Assembly (NCBI RefSeq): GCF_010119615.1
Contig: NZ_QOVG01000008.1
Span: 1 to 64,000, forward strand
Origin: Pseudoxanthomonas gei
GTDB lineage: Bacteria > Pseudomonadota > Gammaproteobacteria > Xanthomonadales > Xanthomonadaceae
Direction: 5' to 3'
Length of the DNA stretch: 64,000 bases
Shown here: positions 27,349 through 41,022 of the stretch, piece after piece
Position numbering within the stretch: the stretch's first letter is position 1
Layout: the number at the start of each line of letters is the position of its first letter
Made by a program: the position numbers and the translations under genes
The notes under the pieces: model-generated
The model's input: only the letters and a program-made list of their open reading frames with translations
What the model was told of the DNA's origin: nothing
The model's database searches: none

Positions 27349-28335
27349 ATGAAGAATCCCGTTCGAGTCGCCGTCACCGGTGCCGCTGGCCAGATCGGCT
27401 ACGCGCTGCTGTTCCGTATTGCCTCCGGCGAAATGCTGGGCAAGGACCAGCCGGTGATCCTGCAGTTGCTGGAACTGCCGATCGACAAGGCCCAGGCCGC
27501 GCTGAAGGGCGTGATGATGGAGCTTGAAGACTGCGCGTTCCCGCTGCTGGCCGGCATGGTCGGCACCGATGACCCGGAAGTCGCGTTCAAGGACGTCGAC
27601 GTTGCCCTGCTGGTCGGCGCGCGTCCGCGCGGCCCGGGCATGGAGCGCAAGGACCTGCTGCTGGAGAACGCCAAGATCTTCACTGCGCAGGGCGCCGCAT
27701 TGAACAAGGTCGCTTCGCGCAACGTGAAGGTGCTGGTGGTCGGCAACCCGGCCAACACCAACGCCTATATCGCCATGAAGTCCGCGCCCGACCTGCCGGC
27801 GAAGAATTTCACCGCCATGCTGCGGCTGGACCACAATCGCGCGCTGTCGCAACTGGCCAACAAGGCCGGCGTGGCGGTAGGTGACATTGAAAACCTGATC
27901 GTGTGGGGCAACCACAGCCCGACCATGTATCCGGATTACCGCTTCGCCACAGTCAGCGGTGCTTCGTTGAAGGACAAGATCAACGACGCGGCCTGGAACA
28001 GCGATGCGTTCATCCCGCAGGTCGGCAAGCGCGGGGCTGCGATCATCGAAGCGCGCGGGCTGTCCTCGGCCGCCTCTGCGGCCAACGCCGCCATCGACCA
28101 CATCCACGACTGGATGCTGGGCAGCAACGGCAAGTGGGTGACCATGGGCGTGCCGTCGGATGGCAGCTACGGCATTCCGGAAGGGGTGATGTACGGCGTG
28201 CCGGTGATCACCGCCAATGGCGAATACACCCGCGTGGAAGGCCTGGAAGTCGACGCATTCAGCCGCGCGGCCATGGACAAGACCCTGGCCGAGCTGGAAG
28301 AAGAGCGCGCCGGCGTGGCGCATCTGCTGGGCTGA
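27349..28335 (+). CDS. mdh: Malate dehydrogenase
   Basis: 328 residues from ATG 27349; the longer in-frame reading from 27274 is leader. It interconverts malate and oxaloacetate in the TCA cycle. The NAD site is [16 protein letters not shown] (9-24), followed by [18 protein letters not shown] and the catalytic-histidine region [11 protein letters not shown]. The length and motifs fit the MDH type 2 group. GAGGA lies 9 nt upstream, and a strong terminator follows. Confidence 0.97.
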
Positions 28336-28357
28336 TCGCCGCGATCAGCTGCAGGAC

Positions 28358-28388
28358 AAAAACGCCGGGCTTGCCCGGCGTTTTTCGT
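28358..28388 (+). terminator. Terminator of mdh
   Basis: AAAAACGCCGGGC, a 2-nt loop and GCCCGGCGTTTTT. This is a strong intrinsic terminator, symmetric enough to work on both strands. Confidence 0.9.
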
Positions 28389-28543
28389 TGCAGGCGCTGG
28401 CCCGAGATGCCCTGTAGCAACGGTTTTTTTAACGCTGCCCGACCGGAATCGCGACCTCCTTTTCACTCGTCCTGCGCCGACATGACGATAGGCGAGGGGG
28501 CCGGACTGCATCGGGATGAAGACCCTTGGAAATGGGGGTTGTT

Positions 28544-28639
28544 GTAGGAGCGACGCAAGTCGCGAAGCCGGGAAATCATTGGCCCCCGACCCTGTAGGCG
28601 ATCATGCGCCGCGTGCTTCGCGACTTGCGTCGCTCCTAC
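28544..28639. repeat. Facing pair of GTAG-type REP sequences
   Basis: Two 25-nt arms (28544-28568 and 28615-28639) are perfect reverse complements: the left begins GTAGGAGCGACGCAAGTCGC and the right ends GACTTGCGTCGCTCCTAC. They enclose 46 nt. Each arm is itself a palindrome around GCGAC-GCAA-GTCGC. The GTAG head is typical of REPs spread by RAYT transposases. The same arms recur at 48957-49440. The surrounding 28386-28800 holds no gene. Confidence 0.9.
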
Positions 28640-28800
28640 AGGTCCTGGGCCAGCACATTCGCCCCGCAGGTATCGCTACGCCCATTCCAATCGTCCGCCC
28701 GGCCCTGCGTGGCCTTGTGATGCAGATGCGACCAATGTCGGAAGGCCTCGTCTCGCCGCGAGGACTATGCTGCGCGAAGTATCGCGTCCGGGAGTGCAGC

Positions 28801-30702
28801 ATGGGCTACGAAGAAACCTATCGCCGTTCAATCGAGGAGCCGGAGGCATTCTGGGCCGAGGAAGCCAAGGTCATTCACTGGCATGTGCCGCCACAGCAGA
28901 TCCTCGATTATTCCAATCCGCCGTTCCGCAAGTGGTTCGTCGGCGGCCAGACCAACCTCTGCTACAACGCCGTGGACCGCCATCTGGCCGAGCGCGGCGA
29001 ACAGCTTGCGCTGGTCGCCATTTCCACCGAAACCAACCTCACCCGAGAGATCACCTACGCGCAGCTGTATCGCGAGGTCAATGCGTTCGCGGCCATCCTT
29101 AAAAAGCTGGATGTCGGCCGCGGCGATCGCGTGGTCATCTACATGCCCAACATGGCCGAGGCCGTATTTGCCATGCTGGCGTGCGCGCGCATCGGCGCAG
29201 TGCATTCGGTGGTGTTTGGCGGGTTTGCCGCGCACAACCTGGCGCTGCGCATCGACGATGCCACGCCCAAGCTGCTGATTGCCGCCGACGCCGGAATGCG
29301 CGGCGGCAAGGTGCTGCCCTATAAAGCATTGGTGGACCAGGCCTGCGAGGCATCGGCAACGCCTCCGCAGAAAGTATTGATCGTCTCGCGCGGCCTGCAC
29401 CCGGCCTTGCCCAGGGTCGAAGGTCGCGACGTCGACTACGCTGCGCTCCGGGCCGAAGTCGGCGATGCCGAGGTGCCGGTCGAGTGGCTGGAGTCCAACG
29501 AGCCCAGCTACCTGCTCTACACCTCCGGCACCACCGGCAAGCCCAAGGGCGTGCAGCGCGACGTCGGCGGCTATGCCGTCGCGCTGGCATTGTCGATGCG
29601 GACCGTGTTCGATGTGGCGCCGGGACAGGTCATGTTCTCCACCTCCGACGTGGGCTGGGCGGTGGGGCATTCCTACAACGTGTACGGTCCGTTGATCGGT
29701 GGCTGCACCACCCTGTTGTACGAAGGGCTGCCGCTCAATCCGGATGCCGGCATCTGGTGGTCGCTGTGCGAAAAATACGGCGTGCGCACCATGTTCTCCT
29801 CGCCGACCGCGATCCGCGTTTTGAAGAAGCATGATGTCTCCTTCATCCGCGACCACGACCTGTCGAAGTTGCAGTACCTGTTCCTGGCTGGCGAGCCGCT
29901 GGACGAAACCACCGCGCACTGGATCCACGATGCGCTGGGTAAGCCGGTCATCGACAACTACTGGCAGACCGAGACCGGCTGGCCTGCGATCACCCTGCTG
30001 CCAGGGCTGGAGATGAAACCGGTGAAGTTCGGATCGCCCGGCTTTCCCAACCTCGGCTATCGCATGAAGGTGATCAACGAGAGCGATGGCACTGAAACCG
30101 CGCCGAACCAGAAGGGAGTGCTGGTGTTCCAGCCGCCCCTGCCGCCCGGCTGCATGACCACCATCTGGAACGACGATGCCCGTTTCATCGGCAGTTATTT
30201 CAGCCATTTCAAGGAGCTTCTTTACAGCTCGCTGGACTGGGCGATACGCGACGAGGACGGTTATACCTTCATCCTTGGGCGCACCGACGATGTCATCAAC
30301 GTAGCCGGCCATCGCCTGGGCACGCGTGAGATAGAGGAGTCGGTTTCTTCCTTCAGCGCCGTGGCCGAGGCAGCCGTAATTGGCGTGCATGACGAACTCA
30401 AAGGCCAGGTGCCGGTCGTGTTCGCCACGCTGCGCCACCACAGCGATGAGCCGCTGGAGCGGGTAGCGGCTGCCCGCGGCATGCGCCGGGCGGTGGAGGA
30501 CAGCCTGGGCGCCGTGGCCCGACCGGCCCGGGTCTATATCGTCAATGCCCTGCCGAAGACGCGTTCGGGCAAGTTGCTGCGACGCTCGTTGCAGGCGCTG
30601 GCGCAGGGCTCGGATCCTGGTGACATGTCCACCCTGGACGATCCCAACGCGCTGGAGGAAATCCGGAAGGCGCTGCTGCGCGGCCCTGAAGTCGGCAGCT
30701 GA
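28801..30702 (+). CDS. prpE: Propionate--CoA ligase
   Basis: 633 residues from ATG 28801, with GGGAG 6 nt upstream; an in-frame reading from 28516 runs through repeats and is rejected. It activates propionate to propionyl-CoA through an acyl-adenylate. The AMP-binding loop YTSGTTGKPKGVQRD, the GRTDDVINVAGHRLGTREIE hinge and the C-terminal TRSGKLLRR, whose lysine is regulated by acetylation in homologues, are present. The start (YRRSIEEPEAFWAEEA) resembles Salmonella PrpE rather than Acs, and the adjacent prp genes support propionate as substrate. Confidence 0.94.
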   Translation: MGYEETYRRSIEEPEAFWAEEAKVIHWHVPPQQILDYSNPPFRKWFVGGQTNLCYNAVDRHLAERGEQLALVAISTETNLTREITYAQLYREVNAFAAILKKLDVGRGDRVVIYMPNMAEAVFAMLACARIGAVHSVVFGGFAAHNLALRIDDATPKLLIAADAGMRGGKVLPYKALVDQACEASATPPQKVLIVSRGLHPALPRVEGRDVDYAALRAEVGDAEVPVEWLESNEPSYLLYTSGTTGKPKGVQRDVGGYAVALALSMRTVFDVAPGQVMFSTSDVGWAVGHSYNVYGPLIGGCTTLLYEGLPLNPDAGIWWSLCEKYGVRTMFSSPTAIRVLKKHDVSFIRDHDLSKLQYLFLAGEPLDETTAHWIHDALGKPVIDNYWQTETGWPAITLLPGLEMKPVKFGSPGFPNLGYRMKVINESDGTETAPNQKGVLVFQPPLPPGCMTTIWNDDARFIGSYFSHFKELLYSSLDWAIRDEDGYTFILGRTDDVINVAGHRLGTREIEESVSSFSAVAEAAVIGVHDELKGQVPVVFATLRHHSDEPLERVAAARGMRRAVEDSLGAVARPARVYIVNALPKTRSGKLLRRSLQALAQGSDPGDMSTLDDPNALEEIRKALLRGPEVGS

Positions 30703-30711
30703 GCGCGCCCT

Positions 30712-31944
30712 TCATTCCGGCGCCGCCGGGGCAATGCCGGTGTAGCTGGCGCGCGGCCTGATCAGCCGGCCCTGGGCCTGCTGTTCCAGCGCGTGGGCCA
30801 GCCAGCCGGCCACGCGTCCGGCCGCGAACATCACCAGCGCCGGCGTGGCGGGCAGGGCATTGGCGTGGCAGATGGCAGCCAGCATGAAGTCGATGTTGGG
30901 GCGCTGGCCGCTGACCTCCTCGGCGGCGGCGATGATGGATTCCAGCGCGTCCATCACCGGCGTGCCCGCATTGGCCGCACGCAGCCTGGCCAGGATCTCG
31001 GTGGCGCGCGGGTCGCCGTGCGGATACAGCACGTGGCCGAAACCCGGCAGGTCGTCGCCACGTTGCCAGCGGGTGGAAATGAATTCACGGATGGAGGCCA
31101 CTTCGCGCGCGTCGGCGATCAGGGCGTGGGTACGCGCGGTGGCACCGCCGTGTCGCGGGCCGGAAAGCGCGGCCAGCCCGCTGCAGACCGTGGCATGCAG
31201 GTGGGCGCCGGTGGACGCCACCACACGTGCTGCGAATGCCGACACGTTCAATTCGTGGTCGGCGCACACCACCAGCGCGGCGCGCACCAGTTCGGCGAAG
31301 GCTTCGTCGCCAGGTTTCCAGCACTGGGCAAGCTGGCGGTGCACCGGACCGGTCGAAGGCGGTTGGGCCACCAGCAGCGCGGCGTTGTGGCGCAGCAGGG
31401 TGGCGGCAATCTCATGCCGCACGCGCGGCGCCGAATTGAAGGAGTGGCGCACTTCGAGGGCCAGCAACGGAATCGCCGACATCGTTCTTTCCAGCGGCGG
31501 CAAGCTGGCGACACAGGCGATCCCGGCCACCGTGGCTGGCCACTGCGCGTCGATGGAAACCGCGAAGGGATCATGTTCGCCACAGTCCCACAGCAGCCGG
31601 GCCACGTCCTCCAGGGTCGCACCCTCGTGCACGGCGGCGATCGCCGAGCGGCCGCGGTAGTAGGGACCATCGGGTCGGATCAGCGAGATCTGCGTTTCCA
31701 GCACGGGCAGGCCACGATCAAGGCTCTGGGCCGCGCCGCGTGCCGCGCCGCGCCCCGCCTGCTTGCGCTGGGCCAGCCGCTCCACGTCCTGCCGCGGATA
31801 CAGTCGGCTGCGGTGGTCCGGCCCCGGTCGGGATTCCAGCAGGCCGCGGCTGACGTACGCATACAGGGTGGCTTGGCTGATGCCCAGAAGCGAACAGGTT
31901 TCGCGGGCGGACAGCAGGTCGGGGCGGGCGGCATCAGCGAGCAT
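30712..31944 (-). CDS. Helix-turn-helix/citrate synthase fusion, candidate prp regulator
   Basis: 410 residues from 31944; an earlier in-frame start would add 61 non-conserved residues. Residues 10-55 form a MerR/excisionase-type helix-turn-helix (SARETCSLLGISQATLYAYV), and about 85-395 form a citrate synthase domain. All three catalytic positions are kept: H265 (GPRHGG), H304 (GFGHVLY) and D352 (NIDF). It may bind propionyl-CoA or methylcitrate and control transcription, or be an active synthase with a DNA-binding domain. It is divergent from prpB, converges on prpE, and has palindromic sites just upstream. Confidence 0.85.
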   Translation of the reverse strand: MLADAARPDLLSARETCSLLGISQATLYAYVSRGLLESRPGPDHRSRLYPRQDVERLAQRKQAGRGAARGAAQSLDRGLPVLETQISLIRPDGPYYRGRSAIAAVHEGATLEDVARLLWDCGEHDPFAVSIDAQWPATVAGIACVASLPPLERTMSAIPLLALEVRHSFNSAPRVRHEIAATLLRHNAALLVAQPPSTGPVHRQLAQCWKPGDEAFAELVRAALVVCADHELNVSAFAARVVASTGAHLHATVCSGLAALSGPRHGGATARTHALIADAREVASIREFISTRWQRGDDLPGFGHVLYPHGDPRATEILARLRAANAGTPVMDALESIIAAAEEVSGQRPNIDFMLAAICHANALPATPALVMFAAGRVAGWLAHALEQQAQGRLIRPRASYTGIAPAAPE

Positions 31945-31953
31945 GGCAACACA

Positions 31954-31981
31954 TTGATTGACTTGATCAAGATTGATCAAT
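31954..31981. promoter_or_regulatory. Tandem TTGATCAA palindromes, candidate operator
   Basis: TTGATCAA occurs at 31963-31970 and 31973-31980, exactly 10 bp apart, and a further TTGAT half-site lies at 31954-31958. They begin 10 nt before the start of the HTH/citrate synthase gene, in the 149-nt region it shares with prpB. The helical spacing suggests cooperative binding of a dimeric regulator. Confidence 0.6.
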
Positions 31982-32093
31982 ACTCGATTTGGTGCCAGAT
32001 TTGCAACCCGTCGAGGGGCGTACCATTCGCCCACCTCAGCCGTCCGGCTCGTCGCCGTGACGGCTACGCGACCCCAAACAGGAGTCCTGCCGC

Positions 32094-32999
32094 ATGAGCC
32101 ACCCATCCGCTGGCGCCCCCGCTTCACCCGGCGCGAAGTTCCGCGCCGCGCTGGCCGCCGAATCCCCGCTGCAGGTGATCGGCGCCATCAATGCCAACCA
32201 CGCCCTGCTGGCCAAGCGCGCCGGCTATCGCGCCATCTATCTGTCCGGTGGCGGCGTGGCCGCTGGCTCGCTGGGCCTGCCGGACCTGGGCATCAATACC
32301 CTTGAAGACGTGCTGATCGACGTGCGCCGCATCACCGACGTCTGCGACCTGCCGTTGCTGGTCGACATCGACACCGGCTTCGGCCCCAGCGCCTTCAATA
32401 TCGAGCGCACGGTGAAGTCGCTGATCAAGGCCGGTGCCGCGGCCTGCCATATCGAGGACCAGGTTGGAGCCAAGCGTTGCGGCCATCGGCCCGGCAAGGA
32501 AATAGTCACTGCGTCCGAGATGGTGGACCGGGTCAAGGCGGCCGCCGATGCGAAGACCGATGCGCAGTTTTTCCTGATCGCCCGCACCGACGCCATCCAG
32601 GTCGATGGCGTGGATGCGGCCATCGAGCGCGCCATCGCCTGCGTGGAAGCCGGCGCCGACGGCATCTTCGCCGAAGCCGCCTACGATCTTCCCACCTACC
32701 AGCGTTTCGTCGATGCGGTGAAGGTGCCGGTGCTGGCCAACATCACCGAGTTCGGCAAGACGCCGCTGTTCACCCGCGACGAGCTGGCCTCGGTCGGCGT
32801 GGCCATCCAGCTGTACCCGCTGTCGGCGTTCCGCGCCATGAACAAGGCCGCCGAAGCGGTGTACACCGCGATCCGTCGCGATGGCCACCAGCAGAACGTG
32901 GTCGGCAGCATGCAGACGCGCGAGGAGCTCTACGAGCGCATCAGTTACCACGACTTCGAGCAGAAGCTCGATGCCCTGTTCGCCAGGAAGCAAGGCTGA
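32094..32999 (+). CDS. prpB: 2-methylisocitrate lyase
   Basis: 301 residues. It splits 2-methylisocitrate into pyruvate and succinate, the last step of the methylcitrate cycle. The active-site loop KRCGHRPGK is at 127-135 with catalytic C129, and metal-binding residues lie in VDIDTGFG (90-97). GGAG lies 9-12 nt upstream of the ATG. It is the first gene of the prpB-DUF1003-prpC-acnD-prpF series. Confidence 0.96.
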
Positions 33000-33028
33000 T
33001 TGCAGGCAGTGCGCAACGGAGTTCCCTC

Positions 33029-33601
33029 ATGACAGCCACGTCCAGGAAACATCCCGACCGCCGCGAAACCGCGCGCCGCCTGCTGCAGGTCGAGGTGGAG
33101 AAACTGCCGGCCCATGAGCGCGAGATCGTCGAGCGCTTCATCGCCCAGCGCCATGTGTCGCGCAACATCGTGCAGGAGTACGAGCGCGGCGTTGGTCTCG
33201 GTGAACGCGTCGCCGACAAGGTCGCCCAGGTCGGCGGCAGCTGGGCTTTCATCATCACCTTCCTGCTGTGCCTGGTGGCGTGGATGGTCATCAACACCTT
33301 CGTGCTGGCCAAGGGTGCGTTCGATCCCTATCCCTACATCCTGCTGAACCTGTGCCTGTCCTGCGTGGCCGCGATCCAGGCGCCGATCATCATGATGAGC
33401 CAGAACCGGCAGGGGGTCATCGACCGCCTGCGTGCGCACAACGACTACGAGGTGAACGTCAAGGCCGAGCTGGAAATCATGCAGGTCCACGAAAAGCTCA
33501 ACGACCTGCGCGAGAGCGACTGGTCCACGCTGGTGGAGTTGCAGAACCAGCAGATAGAACTGCTGCGGCAGCTGCTGCAGCGCAATCAGAATCCAGACTG
33601 A
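33029..33601 (+). CDS. DUF1003 family membrane protein within the prp operon
   Basis: 190 residues from ATG 33029. A charged cytoplasmic N-terminus (1-70) is followed by two membrane segments (about 72-93 and 104-125) and a helical C-terminal tail. VGGSWAFIITFLLCLVAWM, PYPYILLNLCLSCVAAIQAP and IIMMSQNR are typical of DUF1003. The molecular function is unknown. It lies 29 nt after prpB and 42 nt before prpC, which suggests co-expression with propionate genes. Confidence 0.85.
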   Translation: MTATSRKHPDRRETARRLLQVEVEKLPAHEREIVERFIAQRHVSRNIVQEYERGVGLGERVADKVAQVGGSWAFIITFLLCLVAWMVINTFVLAKGAFDPYPYILLNLCLSCVAAIQAPIIMMSQNRQGVIDRLRAHNDYEVNVKAELEIMQVHEKLNDLRESDWSTLVELQNQQIELLRQLLQRNQNPD

Positions 33602-33643
33602 CGGCATGCCCGTCCTTCCATTTGAGAAAAGCGAGTACATCCA

Positions 33644-34792
33644 ATGACCGAAGCCGCCGTTCCCTTCAAGCCCAAGAAATCCGTCGTCCTGTCAGGCACC
33701 GCCGCCGGCAACACCGCCCTGTGCACCGTGGGCCGCAGCGGCAACGACCTGCACTACCGCGGCTACGACATCCTGGATATCGCCCGCACTTCCGAGTTCG
33801 AGGAAATCGCCCACCTGCTGGTCCACGGCAAGCTGCCGAATCGCGCCGAACTTGCCGCCTACAAGACCAAGCTGAAATCACTGCGCGGCGTTCCCGCGGC
33901 AGTCAAGGTGGCGCTGGAGCAACTGCCGGCTTCGGCACACCCCATGGACGTGATGCGCACCGGCGTGTCGGTGCTTGGCTGCGTATTGCCGGAAAAGGAC
34001 GACCACAACCATCCCGGCGCGCGTGACATCGCCGACAAGCTGATGGCATCGCTCGGCCCCATGCTGCTGTACTGGTACCACTGGAGCCACAACGGCAAGT
34101 GCATCGACACCGACTCGGACGAAGACAGCATCGGTGGCCATTTCCTGCATCTGCTGCATGGCGCGAAGCCGCGCGAGTCGTGGGTCAAGGCGATGCATAC
34201 CTCGCTGATCCTGTACGCCGAGCACGAGTTCAACGCCTCGACCTTCGCGTGCCGGGTCATCGCCGGCACCGGCAGCGACCTGCACAGCTGCATCACCGGT
34301 GGCATCGGCGCGCTGCGCGGCCCCAAGCACGGCGGCGCCAACGAGGTCGCCTTCGAAGTGCAGAAGCGCTATGAAACGCCTGACCAAGCCGAGGCCGACA
34401 TCAAGGCCCGCGTCGAGCGCAAGGAAGTCGTCATCGGCTTCGGCCATCCGGTCTACACCACCGGAGACCCGCGCAACCAGGTGATCAAGGATGTGGCGCG
34501 CGAGCTGTCGGACGAGCAGGGCAACCGCAAGATGTACGACATCGCCGAGCGCCTGGAGACGGTGATGTGGGACATCAAGAAGATGTTCCCGAACCTGGAC
34601 TGGTTCAGTGCGGTCAGCTACCACATGATGGGCGTGCCGACGGCGATGTTCACGCCGCTGTTCGTGATCGCCCGCACCAGTGGCTGGAGCGCCCACGTGA
34701 TCGAACAGCGCATCGACGGCAAGATCATCCGTCCCAGTGCCAACTACACCGGCCCGGAAGACCTGGCCTTCGTGCCGATCGACCAGCGCTAG
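33644..34792 (+). CDS. prpC: 2-methylcitrate synthase
   Basis: 382 residues. It condenses propionyl-CoA with oxaloacetate. The citrate synthase triad is H229 (GPKHGG), H268 (GFGHPVY) and D319 (NLDWFS). The short length, lack of the N-terminal domain of GltA, and the prp context identify it as the methylcitrate enzyme; some activity with acetyl-CoA is usual for the family. It lies 82 nt before acnD. Confidence 0.96.
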
Positions 34793-34874
34793 CGGCGGTG
34801 TGCAGGCGGAGCGCCGCTTCGCCTGCACCTGCGTAACACCCATGCGACAGTAGGAATCCACCGGATCGCCCGCC

Positions 34875-37469
34875 ATGAATACCCAGTACCGCAAGACCCT
34901 CCCCGGCACCTCGCTGGATTATTTCGACGCGCGCGAAGGGGTGGATGCCATCAGCCCGGGCGCCTACGACACGCTGCCCTACAGTTCGCGCGTGCTGGCC
35001 GAAAATCTGGTGCGACGTTGCGACCCGGGCACTTTGAATGCGTCGCTGCGGCAATTGATCGAGCGCAAGTCGGATTTGGATTTCCCGTGGTTTCCGGCGC
35101 GCGTGGTCTGCCACGACATACTCGGCCAGACCGCGCTGGTGGACCTTGCAGGCTTGCGTGATGCGATCGCCGAACAAGGCGGTGATCCGGCCCAGGTCAA
35201 CCCGGTGGTGCCGGTACAGCTGATCGTCGACCATTCGCTGGCGGTGGAATGCGGTGGCTACGACCCGGCGGCGTTCGAGAAGAACCGCGCCATCGAGGAT
35301 CGCCGCAACGAGGACCGTTTCCACTTCATCGAATGGACCCGGCAGGCGTTCAAGAACATGGAGGTGATCCCGCCGGGCAACGGGATCATGCACCAGATCA
35401 ACCTGGAGAAGATGTCGCCGGTCGTGCAGGTGCGCGAAGGCGTTGCCTTCCCCGATACCTGCGTGGGCACCGACAGCCACACCCCGCACGTAGACGCGCT
35501 GGGCGTGATTGCGATCGGCGTGGGCGGGCTGGAGGCGGAGAACGTGATGCTGGGCCGCGCCTCGTGGATGCGCACGCCGCAGATCGTCGGCGTCCAGCTG
35601 ACGGGCCGGCCGCAGCCCGGCATCACCGCCACCGACGTGGTGCTGGCGCTGACCGAGTTCCTGCGCAAGTCCAAGGTCGTGGGCGCGTGGCTGGAATTCC
35701 ATGGTGAAGGCGCTTCGGCCCTCACCGTGGGCGACCGCGCCACCATCTCCAACATGGCGCCGGAATACGGCGCCACCGCCGCGATGTTCTCCATCGACTC
35801 GCAGACCATCGATTACCTGCGCCTGACTGGTCGCGACGAGGAACAGATCAGGCTGGTGGAGTCGTATGCCCGCCACACCGGGCTCTGGTCCGACAGCCTG
35901 GGCGGCGTGCAGTACGACCGCGACCTGCGCTTCGACCTGTCCGCCGTGGTGCGCAACATGGCCGGGCCGTCCAACCCGCATGCGCGCGTGGCCACTGCCG
36001 ACCTGGCGGCGCGTGGCATCGCCGGTGTCTGGGAGGAAGTGCCGGGCCTGATGCCCGACGGCGCGGTGATCATCGCCGCGATCACCAGCTGCACCAACAC
36101 CAGCAATCCGCGCAACGTGATCTCCGCAGCGTTGCTGGCGCGCAATGCGAACCAGCTGGGCCTTGCACGCAAGCCGTGGGTGAAGACCTCGCTGGCGCCG
36201 GGTTCCAAGGCGGTATCGCTGTACCTGGAAGAAAGCGGGCTGATGCCCGAGCTGGAGGCGCTTGGCTTTGGCGTGGTCGGCTTCGCCTGCACCACCTGCA
36301 ACGGCATGTCCGGCGCGCTGGACCCGGTGATCCAGCAGGAGATCATCGACCGCGACCTGTACGCCACCGCCGTGCTGTCGGGCAATCGCAATTTCGACGG
36401 CCGCATCCATCCCTACGCCAGGCAGGCCTTCCTGGCCTCGCCGGCCTTGGTGGTGGCCTATGCCATTGCCGGCACCATCCGCTTCGACATCGAGAAGGAC
36501 GTGCTGGGCGTGGTCGACGGCAGGGAAATCCGCCTGAAGGATGTCTGGCCCAGCGACGAGGAGATCGACGCCGTGGTCAAGGCTTCGGTGAAGCCCGAGC
36601 AGTTCCGCAGTGTCTACAACCCGATGTTCGCGGTGCGCGTGGAGCATGGACCGAGAGTCGAACCGCTATACGATTGGCGCCCGCAAAGCACCTATATCCG
36701 CCGTCCACCGTATTGGGAAGGTGCGCTTGCGGGCGCGCGCACACTGCAGGGCCTGCGTCCGTTGGCAGTGCTGCCGGACAACATCACTACCGACCATCTT
36801 TCGCCCTCGAACGCGATCATGCTCAACAGCGCGGCAGGCGAATACCTGGCGAAGATGGGCCTGCCTGAAGAGGACTTCAATTCCTACGCCACCCATCGCG
36901 GCGACCACCTCACCGCGCAGCGCGCCACCTTCGCCAACCCGAAGCTGTTCAACGAGATGGTGCGCAACCCGGACGGCGGCGTGAAGCAGGGCTCGCTGGC
37001 GCGCCTGGAGCCGGAAGGCAAGGTCGTGCGCATGTGGGAAGCGATCGAAACCTACATGGATCGCAAGCAGCCGCTGATCATCATCGCCGGTGCGGATTAC
37101 GGCCAGGGTTCATCGCGCGACTGGGCGGCCAAGGGCGTGCGCCTGGCTGGCGTGGAAGCCATCGCAGCCGAAGGCTTCGAGCGCATCCACCGCACCAACC
37201 TGGTCGGCATGGGCGTGCTGCCGCTGGAGTTCAAGCCGGGGACCACGCGCATCACGCTGGGTATCGATGGGACGGAGACGTTCGACGTCATCGGCGAGCG
37301 TACCCCGGGCGCCGAGCTGACCCTGGTGATCCATCGCCGGTCGGGCGAGCGGGTCGAGGTGCCGGTGACGTGCAGGCTGGACAGCGATGAAGAGGTTTCG
37401 ATCTACGAGGCGGGTGGGGTGCTGCAGAGGTTTGCGCAGGATTTCCTGGAGTCATCGAAAGTCGCGTGA
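34875..37469 (+). CDS. acnD: Fe/S-dependent 2-methylcitrate dehydratase
   Basis: 864 residues. AcnD dehydrates 2-methylcitrate and works together with PrpF. It is an aconitase family protein with 4Fe-4S ligands at C406 (SCTNTSNP), C472 and C475 (ACTTCNG), and the swivelling C-terminal domain carries DYGQGSSRDWAAKGVRLAGV. The pairing with prpF downstream distinguishes it from a housekeeping aconitase. This gene pair replaces prpD. Confidence 0.96.
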   Translation: MNTQYRKTLPGTSLDYFDAREGVDAISPGAYDTLPYSSRVLAENLVRRCDPGTLNASLRQLIERKSDLDFPWFPARVVCHDILGQTALVDLAGLRDAIAEQGGDPAQVNPVVPVQLIVDHSLAVECGGYDPAAFEKNRAIEDRRNEDRFHFIEWTRQAFKNMEVIPPGNGIMHQINLEKMSPVVQVREGVAFPDTCVGTDSHTPHVDALGVIAIGVGGLEAENVMLGRASWMRTPQIVGVQLTGRPQPGITATDVVLALTEFLRKSKVVGAWLEFHGEGASALTVGDRATISNMAPEYGATAAMFSIDSQTIDYLRLTGRDEEQIRLVESYARHTGLWSDSLGGVQYDRDLRFDLSAVVRNMAGPSNPHARVATADLAARGIAGVWEEVPGLMPDGAVIIAAITSCTNTSNPRNVISAALLARNANQLGLARKPWVKTSLAPGSKAVSLYLEESGLMPELEALGFGVVGFACTTCNGMSGALDPVIQQEIIDRDLYATAVLSGNRNFDGRIHPYARQAFLASPALVVAYAIAGTIRFDIEKDVLGVVDGREIRLKDVWPSDEEIDAVVKASVKPEQFRSVYNPMFAVRVEHGPRVEPLYDWRPQSTYIRRPPYWEGALAGARTLQGLRPLAVLPDNITTDHLSPSNAIMLNSAAGEYLAKMGLPEEDFNSYATHRGDHLTAQRATFANPKLFNEMVRNPDGGVKQGSLARLEPEGKVVRMWEAIETYMDRKQPLIIIAGADYGQGSSRDWAAKGVRLAGVEAIAAEGFERIHRTNLVGMGVLPLEFKPGTTRITLGIDGTETFDVIGERTPGAELTLVIHRRSGERVEVPVTCRLDSDEEVSIYEAGGVLQRFAQDFLESSKVA

Positions 37470-37512
37470 AGTAGGGAATAGCAAAGGGAACAGCCGGGGA
37501 TTAATGCTGTTG

Positions 37513-37620
37513 CCTCCCCCTTTGAAAAAGGGGGATTGAGGGGGATTTGCTCTTGCCGTTGCTATTTGCCCGAAGCAGGATCAAGGGCAAATCCTCCGTA
37601 GCCTCCTTTTCCAAAGAGGA
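37513..37620. repeat. Long imperfect inverted repeat between acnD and prpF
   Basis: The left arm (37513-37550, CCTCCCCCTTTGAAAAAGGG onwards) and the right arm (37587-37620, GCAAATCCTCCGTAGCCTCC onwards) are imperfect reverse complements around 36 nt. The left arm also contains its own CCCCCTTT/AAAGGGGG-like hairpin. It looks like a decayed mobile intergenic repeat and fills much of the 213-nt gap. Confidence 0.55.
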
Positions 37621-37682
37621 CACGTCAAAAGCCTGGACTTCCCCGCTTAGCGCTTCCGATACTCAATATCAGGAAAATATTC

Positions 37683-38876
37683 ATGACCCATATTCCCCAG
37701 ATCTGCATCCCCGCCACCTACATGCGCGGAGGCACCAGCAAGGGCGTCTTTTTTCGCCTGGAAGACCTGCCGTTCGCCGCCCAGCTGCCCGGCGCCGCAC
37801 GCGACGCATTGCTGCTGCGGGTCATCGGTTCGCCCGATCCCTACGGCAAGCACACCGACGGCATGGGCGGCGCGACCTCGAGCACCAGCAAGGTCGTCAT
37901 CATTTCGAAAAGCACGCAGCCGGAACACGACGTCGATTATTTGTACGGGCAGGTTCCCATCAACGACAGCTTCATCGACTGGAGCGGCAACTGCGGCAAC
38001 CTGTCTTCAGCCGTCGGTCCGTTCGCAATCGCCAATGGCCTGGTCGACCCGGCGCGCATTCCGCATGACGGCCTCTGCACAGTGCGCATCTGGCAGGTCA
38101 ACATTGCCAAGACCATCATTGCCCATGTGCAGGTCGCCAATGGCGAAGTGCAGGAAACCGGCGACTTCGAGCTGGACGGCGTGACCTTTCCGGCGGCCGA
38201 AATACAGCTGGAGTTCCTGGACCCTGCCGATGAAGGCGACGGCGAGGGCGGTGGCGCCATGTTCCCGACCGGCAACCTGGTCGACACGCTGGAAGTGCCG
38301 GGGATCGGGTCTTTCAAGGCCACCCTGATCAATGCCGGCGTGCCGACCATTTTCGTGGACGCTGCGGCGCTGGGTTATGACGGCACCGAATTGCAGGCCG
38401 CCATCAACGAAGACAAGGCCGCACTGGCCAGGCTGGAGGCGATCCGTGCCCACGGCGCCGTGCGCATGGGCCTGGTCGCCGAGGCCTCCCAGGCAGCGGC
38501 GCGTCCGCTGACGCCCAAGGTCGCGTTCGTCGCATCCGCAAAGGATTACGTTTCTTCCAGCGGCAAGTCTGTGCGGGCGTCTGACATCGACCTGCTGGCC
38601 CGTGCCATGTCCATGGGCAAGCTGCACCACGCCATGATGGGGACCGCCTCGGTGGCGATCGCCGCCGCGGCGGCCGTGCCGGGCACCCTGGTCAATGCCG
38701 CAGCGGGCGGTGGCACCCGCGAAGTGGTCGTGTTCGGCCATCCTTCGGGCACCCTGCGGGTGGGGGCCGAAGCGATGCAGGCCGACGGCCAGTGGGCGGT
38801 GCGCAAGGCGATCATGAGCCGCAGCGCCCGCGTCCTGATGGAAGGCGCGGTGCGGGTGCCGGGCGACTCGTTCTGA
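37683..38876 (+). CDS. prpF: 2-methylaconitate isomerase PrpF
   Basis: 397 residues. PrpF isomerises the 2-methylaconitate made by AcnD so that aconitase can rehydrate it. It has the two-lobed diaminopimelate-epimerase-like fold. Conserved parts include IPATYMRGGTSKGVFFRLED with the catalytic lysine region, DGMGGATSSTSKVVI, GNCGNLSSAVGPFAI and AAAVPGTLVNAAAGGG. It is the last gene of the prp series. Confidence 0.95.
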   Translation: MTHIPQICIPATYMRGGTSKGVFFRLEDLPFAAQLPGAARDALLLRVIGSPDPYGKHTDGMGGATSSTSKVVIISKSTQPEHDVDYLYGQVPINDSFIDWSGNCGNLSSAVGPFAIANGLVDPARIPHDGLCTVRIWQVNIAKTIIAHVQVANGEVQETGDFELDGVTFPAAEIQLEFLDPADEGDGEGGGAMFPTGNLVDTLEVPGIGSFKATLINAGVPTIFVDAAALGYDGTELQAAINEDKAALARLEAIRAHGAVRMGLVAEASQAAARPLTPKVAFVASAKDYVSSSGKSVRASDIDLLARAMSMGKLHHAMMGTASVAIAAAAAVPGTLVNAAAGGGTREVVVFGHPSGTLRVGAEAMQADGQWAVRKAIMSRSARVLMEGAVRVPGDSF

Positions 38877-39023
38877 CAGATCCTCGCGGCGGACTGGCAT
38901 TTCGCCGCCTTGCGGGAGCCGGTCGACGCAGGACAGCCCGGCCTGATTCCATTAACATGCGTCCGGGCCGATCCGGCGCCCGACAGCCCCAGGTGGCCTG
39001 CCAACGCGGGCCGAGCGTGCGAC

Positions 39024-39050
39024 ATGAGCACTACCATCTCCCACCGCTGA
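39024..39050 (+). CDS. Possible thrS leader peptide (MSTTISHR)
   Basis: An 8-codon reading frame, ATG AGC ACT ACC ATC TCC CAC CGC TGA, lies 30 nt before a terminator-like hairpin and 71 nt before thrS. It has two adjacent Thr codons. The ribosome site is weak (GAG about 9 nt upstream). It may be a leader peptide for attenuation by charged tRNA-Thr, or chance. Confidence 0.3.
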
Positions 39051-39079
39051 TTTCCCGCCGCCACTTCGTACCCTGGTCG

Positions 39080-39101
39080 AAGGCGCGTGGCGCCTTTTTT
39101 G
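39080..39101 (+). terminator. Terminator-like hairpin just before thrS
   Basis: AAGGCGC-GTG-GCGCCTT followed by TTTT and then GCTTTCT, ending 20 nt before the thrS start. Lying in the leader rather than after a gene, it is a candidate attenuator of the thrS-infC-rpmI-rplT cluster, though it could also be a terminator for read-through from prpF. Confidence 0.6.
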
Positions 39102-39120
39102 CTTTCTACGGTTACCCAAA

Positions 39121-41022
39121 ATGATCACGATCACGCTCCCCGACGGCAGCCGCCGCGAATTCGAAAACCCCGTCACGGTCATGGAAGTGGCCCAGTCCAT
39201 CGGCGCCGGCCTGGCCAAGGCCACCGTGGCCGGCGCGGTCGACGGCAAGCTGGTCGACGCCAGTGACCGCATCGAGCACGACGCCAGCCTGCGCATCATC
39301 ACGCCCAAGGACGAGGAGGGCCTGGAGATCATCCGCCACTCCAGCGCGCACCTGGTCGGCCATGCGGTGAAGCAGCTGTTCCCGGAAGCCAAGATGGTGA
39401 TCGGCCCGGTCATCGCCGAAGGCTTCTATTACGACATCTGGAACGAGCGCCCGTTCACGCCAGAGGACCTGGCCGCGATCGAGCAGCGCATGCAGGAACT
39501 CATCGCCCAGGATTACGACGTCATCAAGAAGGTGACGCCGCGCGCCGAAGTGATCGAGACATTCAAGTCGCGTGGCGAGGAATACAAACTGCGCCTGATC
39601 GAGGACATGCCTGACGAAACGGCCATGGGCCTGTACTACCACCAGGAATACGTGGACATGTGCCGCGGCCCGCACGTGCCCAATACGCGCTTCCTGAAGG
39701 CGTTCAAGCTGACCCGCATTTCCGGTGCCTACTGGCGTGGCGATGCCAAGAACGAGCAGCTGCAGCGCATCTACGGCACGGCCTGGGCCGACAAGAAGCA
39801 GCTCGAGGCCTACATCACCCGCATCGAGGAAGCCGACAAGCGCGACCACCGCAAGATCGCCAAGCAGCAGGAATTGTTCCACCTGCAGGAAGAAGCCCCG
39901 GGCCTGGTGTTCTGGCACCCCAAGGGCTGGGCCATCTGGCAGGTGGTCGAGCAGTACATGCGCAAGGTCTACCGCGACACCGGCTATGGCGAAGTGCGCT
40001 GCCCGCAGATCCTGGACGTGTCGCTGTGGCAGAAGTCCGGCCACTGGGACAACTACCAGGACAACATGTTCTTCACCGAATCGGAGAAGCGCACCTATGC
40101 GCTGAAGCCGATGAACTGCCCCGGCCATGTGCAGGTGTTCAATCAGGGGCTGCACAGCTACCGCGACCTGCCGATCCGTTACGGCGAATTCGGTGCCTGC
40201 CATCGCAACGAACCCTCCGGCGCGCTGCACGGCATCCTGCGCGTGCGTGGCTTCACCCAGGACGACGGTCATATCTTCTGCACCGAGGACCAGATCGAAT
40301 CCGAAGTCACGGCCTTCCACCAGCAGGCGCTGGCGGTGTACCAGGCGTTCGGGTTCCAGGACATCCAGATCAAGATCGCCTTGCGCCCGGAAGCGCGCCT
40401 GGGCGACGACGCCACCTGGGACAAGGCCGAAGGCGCGCTGCGCTCGGCGCTGGCGGTATGCGGCGTGGAATGGCAGGAGCTGCCGGGCGAGGGCGCCTTC
40501 TACGGTCCCAAGATCGAATACCACCTCAAGGACGCCATCGGCCGGACCTGGCAGCTGGGCACCATGCAGGTCGATTTCATGATGCCCGAGCGCCTGGGGG
40601 CCGAGTACGTGGACGAGAATTCCGCGCGCAAGCACCCCGTTATGCTGCACCGGGCCATCGTCGGCTCGATGGAGCGCTTCATCGGCATCCTGATCGAGCA
40701 CCATGCTGGTGCGTTCCCGGCCTGGCTGGCCCCCCGCCAGGCGGTGGTCATGAACATCACCGACGCCCAGGCCGATTACGTGGCCGAAGTCCAGAAAACC
40801 CTTGCAAATCAAGGCTTCCGGGTCGTTTCTGATTTGCGCAACGAGAAGATCGGCTATAAGATCCGCGAGCACACGCTGCAGCGCGTGCCCTACCTGCTCG
40901 TGGTCGGGGACCGCGAGAAGGAAAATGGGGCGATCGCCGTGCGCACGCGCTCGGGCGAAGATTTAGGCACAATGAGCATCGCTGCCTTTGCCGAGCGCCT
41001 CCGCGCCGAGCAGGCCGCATAA
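39121..41022 (+). CDS. thrS: Threonine--tRNA ligase
   Basis: 633 residues. It charges tRNA-Thr and edits Ser-tRNA. Domains are TGS (1-60, [19 protein letters not shown]), the editing domain with [11 protein letters not shown], and a class II catalytic core with [10 protein letters not shown], where the Cys binds zinc, motif 2 near [14 protein letters not shown] and the anticodon domain after residue 530. It heads the conserved thrS-infC-rpmI-rplT order. Confidence 0.97.

Follow-up and report, generated by a model that had tools for sequence, protein, structure and literature searches.

Control of the prp genes has been ascribed, in the cited parts of the literature, to PrpR, to GntR-type proteins or to the mycobacterial PrpR (PMC6765138, PMC9765439). 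A paper from 2022 states in its introduction, with reference to a comparative study of 2012, that PrpR controls prp in all analyzed Xanthomonadales (PMC9765439). PrpR is the AAA+ σ54 activator of prp recognized by model TIGR02329. In Pseudomonas aeruginosa, the same source describes the GntR-family prp regulator PA0797 as a repressor that 2-methylcitrate is believed to release, with a predicted 12-nt palindrome, ATTGTCGACAAT (PMC9765439). The mycobacterial PrpR is reported to control the methylcitrate cycle by binding CoA or short acyl-CoA (PMC6765138).

The present analysis concerns a stretch of 64,000 nucleotides from Pseudoxanthomonas gei, hereafter the window, in which the gene for an HTH–citrate synthase fusion, HTH-CS, lies among the prp genes. 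As a putative prp operon regulator, HTH-CS would share the job of PrpR; however, it matches no AAA+ activator model, TIGR02329 being absent among its profile matches, and the two were never found in one genome (0/149). Where PA0797 carries an FCD sensor domain, HTH-CS carries a citrate synthase domain, and its predicted operator is another one; the mycobacterial PrpR is an activator of different structure with a 4Fe4S cluster. The MerR family and BldC, which binds direct repeats according to the cited part of the report on it (PMC5859096), have the same HTH_17/MerR_1 head, but in HTH-CS a citrate synthase body replaces the classical MerR effector domain and, if the promoter proposed below is right, the operator overlaps a −35 box followed by a 17-bp spacer rather than lying within a long spacer as for MerR. 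The PRK12350 citrate synthases (NF009005), unlike HTH-CS, have no HTH. MocR/GabR and BirA also combine a DNA-binding head with an enzyme fold that serves as sensor, the fold being that of an aminotransferase or a biotin ligase. By analogy, HTH-CS would work like an enzyme-derived one-component regulator, of a kind known for other enzyme folds, here with citrate synthase as the sensor. A literature search with partial journal coverage gave, among the matches listed, no description of an HTH–citrate synthase regulator.

The fusion protein and its genomic setting

The features of the locus are as follows.

28795 to 30702, plus strand: prpE, propionate–CoA ligase, convergent with HTH-CS (TIGR02316, above cut-off)
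30712 to 31944, minus strand: HTH-CS, HTH–citrate synthase fusion, 410 aa (Pfam HTH_17 plus Citrate_synt; orthologs align from about the same position)
31762 to 31917, minus strand: DNA-binding domain of HTH-CS, residues 10 to 61 (Pfam HTH_17, E 1e-8)
30751 to 31716, minus strand: citrate synthase domain of HTH-CS, residues 77 to 398, with H265, H304 and D352 kept (Pfam and AlphaFold model)
32094 to 32999, plus strand: prpB, methylisocitrate lyase, the divergent putative target (TIGR02317, above cut-off)
33032 to 33601: DUF1003 gene between prpB and prpC, start not fixed
33644 to 34792, plus strand: prpC, 2-methylcitrate synthase (NF009006, above cut-off)
34875 to 37469, plus strand: acnD, 2-methylisocitrate dehydratase (TIGR02333, above cut-off)
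37683 to 38876, plus strand: prpF, 2-methylaconitate isomerase (TIGR02334, above cut-off)

An earlier note on this DNA had described a DNA-binding domain joined to a citrate synthase domain that keeps all three catalytic residues, encoded divergently from prpB, and each part of this description was borne out: the two Pfam domains share one reading frame, for which we chose the ATG at 31944 as start, the catalytic residues are H265, H304 and D352, and the divergent neighbor is a prpB that passes TIGR02317. No Rfam match to a structured RNA was obtained within 28300–39200. Upstream of prpE lies a perfect 26-nt inverted repeat, TGTAGGAGCGACGCAAGTCGCGAAGC (28543–28568 and 28615–28640), which we take to resemble REP-type elements.

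The head of HTH-CS is of MerR type. HTH_17 scores 35.8 bits against a cut-off of 27 and MerR_1 24.0 against 21.6, with the older MerR model below its cut-off (17.5 versus 28.2) and the GntR HTH (PF00392) unmatched in the Pfam search. Citrate_synt (PF00285) is covered from position 3 to 357 of 357 (E 3.4e-64) and is matched by 40 of 40 members of alignment A2. Every NCBIfam synthase model stayed below its cut-off (best 163.1 bits versus 332), the top-scoring one being NF009005. Compared with 25 distant relatives, the recognition segment, which we place near residues 22–34, has a mean identity of 72.6%, and residues 77–212, the first part of the synthase domain, one of 29.3%; the rest of that domain is better conserved (47% versus 29%). 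A conserved recognition segment with a divergent start of the synthase domain would be expected of a protein in which the sensor changes but DNA recognition is preserved. In a tree of 62 chosen rows, 58 fusions split from four outgroup synthases (support 99) and the 18 prp-linked fusions group with an acnD-linked one, L073 (support 100); this tree was made by a quick method with SH-aLRT support only, and many of its deeper forks are unsettled and long branches are flagged. Three distant matches (L142, L144 and L118, from genomes G553, G769 and G556) have one stop codon inside the matched stretch.

Judged from the AlphaFold model (mean pLDDT 83.4), the citrate synthase fold of HTH-CS is complete. 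Its closest structural match is PrpC of P. aeruginosa (6s6f; Z 32.3, rmsd 2.9, 322 aligned residues), and nearly all of the best 50 matches listed (Z 29.9–32.3) are titled citrate or methylcitrate synthase, where matches within 1 Z of each other count as tied and a shared fold alone is no demonstration of function; the Foldseek/VIA rows come from one list looked at twice. After six duplicate loci had been left out, 83 of 86 fusions retained the H/H/D trio, and 80 retained every one of the seven pocket residues checked. The second catalytic His is missing in L103 (perhaps misaligned) and L104, one Arg is missing in L112, L118 is without the trio, and Gln replaces the oxaloacetate His in L172 and L175. 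A rule by which catalysis is lost wherever the partner gene is unrelated to citrate synthase was rejected, as none appeared among the fusions checked. The kept pocket fits the binding of oxaloacetate-like acids and perhaps acyl-CoA, and an active enzyme would fit equally. Since its residues are retained even beside a 2-hydroxyacid dehydrogenase neighbor, the ligand is not readable from the neighboring gene.

The earlier note had seen no PrpR- or GntR-type regulator. For PrpR this extends to the whole genome, where nothing exceeded the TIGR02329 cut-off (best 299.2 bits versus 499.2, on another contig); GntR domains (PF00392) do occur, but their three matches all lie on other contigs. Among 149 genomes of the family, PrpR was above cut-off in 16 and HTH-CS present in 31, with no overlap against about 3 genomes expected by independent draw, which is weak support because of shared ancestry; within one genus, g29, HTH-CS is found in one genome and PrpR in four. 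The absence of another regulator says little, because 102 of the 149 genomes have neither protein and another arrangement must therefore be common. At 9 of 15 prpB loci from family genomes without HTH-CS (L121–L135), prpB is preceded by a prpE of the same orientation, an arrangement that differs from that of the window.

The DNA element between HTH-CS and prpB

Two overlapping elements occupy the region between the divergent genes.

31954 to 31977, minus strand: conserved predicted operator, ATCAATCTTGAT-N7-ATCAA, with three half-sites (family pattern search and matrix scans)
31963 to 31980 (31963–31970 and 31973–31980): tandem TTGATCAA, 10 bp apart, overlapping the predicted operator

The tandem is the element to which the earlier note had pointed, and both copies are where it placed them, at 31963 and 31973. 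The octamer alone is weak evidence, because its three copies in the window (0.62 expected) are also reached by 5 of 100 shuffles; moreover, both octamers together are retained in just 2 of 30 family loci, and the tandem was rejected as the operator. The idea that palindromes are conserved in orthologous loci thus failed for the tandem and held strongly for a somewhat different unit, ATCAA-N2-TTGAT-N7-ATCAA. Its core, ATCAATCTTGAT, stands before HTH-CS with prpB as divergent neighbor in 30 of 30 family loci (the window and 29 others). In whole genomes of the family, the complete unit occurs in exactly one copy in each of 31 of 149 and in none of the other 118, and comparison of two lists showed these 31 to be the same that hold HTH-CS at E ≤ 1e-40; the reversed control pattern was found in 0/149. 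Genera of mixed content are concordant, with site and HTH-CS together in 3/5 genomes of g28, 1/5 of g29 and 1/5 of g45 and neither in the remaining ones. Since prpB is above cut-off in 146 of the 149 genomes, the operator goes with the HTH-CS gene and not with prpB. At 54 family loci without HTH-CS, a negative control from which L049 and L055 were left out since both hold the site, the best matrix score was at most 1.9.

A search of the 149 genomes with the exact pattern gave no second site that would point to a wider regulon, and prpE was rejected as a target because the operator was not found before it. In one genome (G087), a duplication of the promoter region between prpB and HTH-CS provides each gene with a copy of the site, the second being one base off the exact pattern. 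Two loci from genomes of the window's genus (L007 and L010) have a prpB of another lineage (63–64% identity) and retain the operator; this looks like gene replacement in place.

Sites and partner genes outside the family

HTH-CS proteins from outside the order share 33–45% identity. At the class level, 4 of 369 genomes had a match at E 1e-45, and a phylum search at the less strict threshold of E ≤ 1e-36 gave 34 of 299; 29 loci lay outside the order, and all 29 were examined. A matrix built from the 30 family sites only was scanned over each whole locus of 8–13 kb, and in 27 of the 29 loci its single best place fell 0–27 bp before the first HTH-CS profile column, scoring 15.5 upward versus at most 5.4 for the second place. 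The scan found no site in the other two, L104 and L118, the latter having lost both site and active-site residues.

Plasmids carry the fusion as well. Eighteen plasmid loci were examined, from at least 30 listed among 55 matching records, and in 14 of them the best place fell no more than about 70 bp before HTH-CS, scoring 8.5 to 32.0. Weak sites are those of L169 (8.5), whose half-sites are one base too close together, and L172 (12.9); the highest background place scored 10.9 (L179). The site of L180 is on the other strand, and L184, which is truncated at the record start, has no site that we could see. In three Burkholderia/Paraburkholderia loci (L167, L176 and L182), an apparent operon, SDR–MFS–VOC–HTH-CS, ends with HTH-CS, and two inverted sites stand at the operon head, in a divergent promoter region beside a D-glycerate dehydrogenase gene. 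Because these sites are 2.7–2.9 kb upstream of HTH-CS, the element was rejected as a translation or leader feature of the HTH-CS gene. The consensus over 44 distant sites, a table from which L104, L118 and L184 had been left out beforehand, is RTCAATMTTGAT-N7-ATCAAY, and TTGAT-N7-ATCAA is exact in 41 of them.

The partner genes change. prpB is the partner within the family, and also at the loci checked in Solimonas, Sinimarinibacterium, Panacagrimonas and Dyella (2/3), and in G512 the partner appears to be acnD. A stand-alone citrate synthase takes this place in 16 of the first 20 loci outside the order, and the three such synthases tested were all of the PRK12350 kind. Other loci have a family III CoA transferase, an HMGL-like protein or a 2-hydroxyacid dehydrogenase accompanied by a transporter, and a DUF2332 protein occurs in a single locus. 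Most partners act in small organic-acid metabolism. Neighboring synthases (L099–L117) have Glu at the position of the catalytic Asp of HTH-CS and PrpC in 16 of 16 cases. One regulator and one operator with changing targets resemble a transcription factor family. Plasmid records, where annotated, name the HTH-CS genes citrate synthase or citrate synthase family protein, and such regulators therefore seem hidden among enzymes.

The proposed switch and its alternatives

Collectively, these data make it likely that HTH-CS is a DNA-binding regulator with a citrate synthase sensor that acts at the predicted site. It is probably an autoregulated local transcription factor, and probably a repressor. 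The suggestion of the earlier note that an enzyme-like sensor regulates prp gains support, as the operator is conserved with HTH-CS in family, distant and plasmid loci. As a one-component transcription factor, HTH-CS would bind ATCAA-N2-TTGAT-N7-ATCAA between its own gene and prpB through the HTH head, and the citrate synthase body would serve as a dimerizing metabolite sensor. The operator would cover both the −35 box of prpB and the stretch just before the HTH-CS start codon, so that the bound protein should repress both genes. During propionate use, either 2-methylcitrate or the pair of propionyl-CoA and oxaloacetate would occupy the sensor pocket, which is built for oxaloacetate and a short acyl-CoA; the ligand-filled domain would then close and the operon be released.

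The sign of this control is read from the geometry of a proposed promoter.

31973 to 32001, plus strand: proposed prpB promoter, −35 TTGATC (31973–31978), 17-bp spacer, extended −10 TGC-CAGATT (31996–32001)

Its −35 box is partly inside the predicted operator, which spans about −54 to −31. All 30 family loci have TTGATC at the operator edge on the prpB strand; the hexamer that follows it after 17 bp is CAGATT (19), CACATT (8) or GAGATT (2) in 29 of the 30, and CACATT in the thirtieth when a longer stretch is read. A strict consensus promoter scan reported no promoter. Because the operator overlaps the −35 box and sits close to the HTH-CS start, we lean toward repression, with modest confidence. 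It is unlikely, but conceivable, that the same local DNA-binding regulator is instead an activator, which would bind over a weak −35 box and immediately upstream of it and recruit RNA polymerase when liganded, in the manner of a class II activator or a MerR-like protein. The site is centered near −36.5 (ATCAA-N2-TTGAT) or −46 (TTGAT-N7-ATCAA) of the proposed promoter, the −10 is poor, and Salmonella PrpR is described, in the cited part of its source, as coactivated by 2-methylcitrate (PMC9765439), all of which would suit activation; yet the −35 box itself is inside the operator, the spacer is a normal 17 bp, and the position of the site directly before the HTH-CS start suggests autorepression.

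Of either sign, control might also be exerted by a bifunctional protein, a working (methyl)citrate synthase that regulates its own operon as well. Retention of the catalytic residues in 83 of 86 fusions and the structural match to PrpC of P. aeruginosa are in keeping with such a protein, but we think it doubtful, as the same genome has a PrpC above cut-off and a further citrate synthase match (contig C22), conservation of the synthase domain is low over its first part (29% versus 47% for the rest), and HTH-CS of the window is below every NCBIfam synthase cut-off. That another factor binds the conserved DNA and HTH-CS is merely a co-regulated enzyme is very improbable, for although binding of HTH-CS to the site is a prediction, the site is in 31 of 31 HTH-CS genomes and 0 of 118 others, though prpB is in 146 of 149, and accompanies HTH-CS across different partner genes.

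With a DNA-binding regulator as the preferred reading, HTH-CS very probably represents an unrecognized family of gene switches whose sensor is a metabolic enzyme, because the fusion adjoins propionate genes and the DNA site is kept with its relatives across distant bacteria. The cited view that prp is under PrpR in all analyzed Xanthomonadales stands against the family studied here, in which HTH-CS is at prpB in 31 of 149 genomes and PrpR is present in 16. Given a predicted operator, a local target and a kept pocket, the sensor, its ligand and the sign are accessible to direct tests, and HTH-CS could yield a biosensor for acyl-CoA or oxaloacetate. More speculatively, and only as a tentative extension, HTH-CS may be a widespread unnamed family, found in several proteobacterial classes and a Deinococcus relative, whose catalytically live fold measures acyl-CoA and keto acid by closing over or condensing them, and whose single ancient operator has been reused by different organic-acid operons. 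If this is true, then the enzyme family that makes the signal would also read it.
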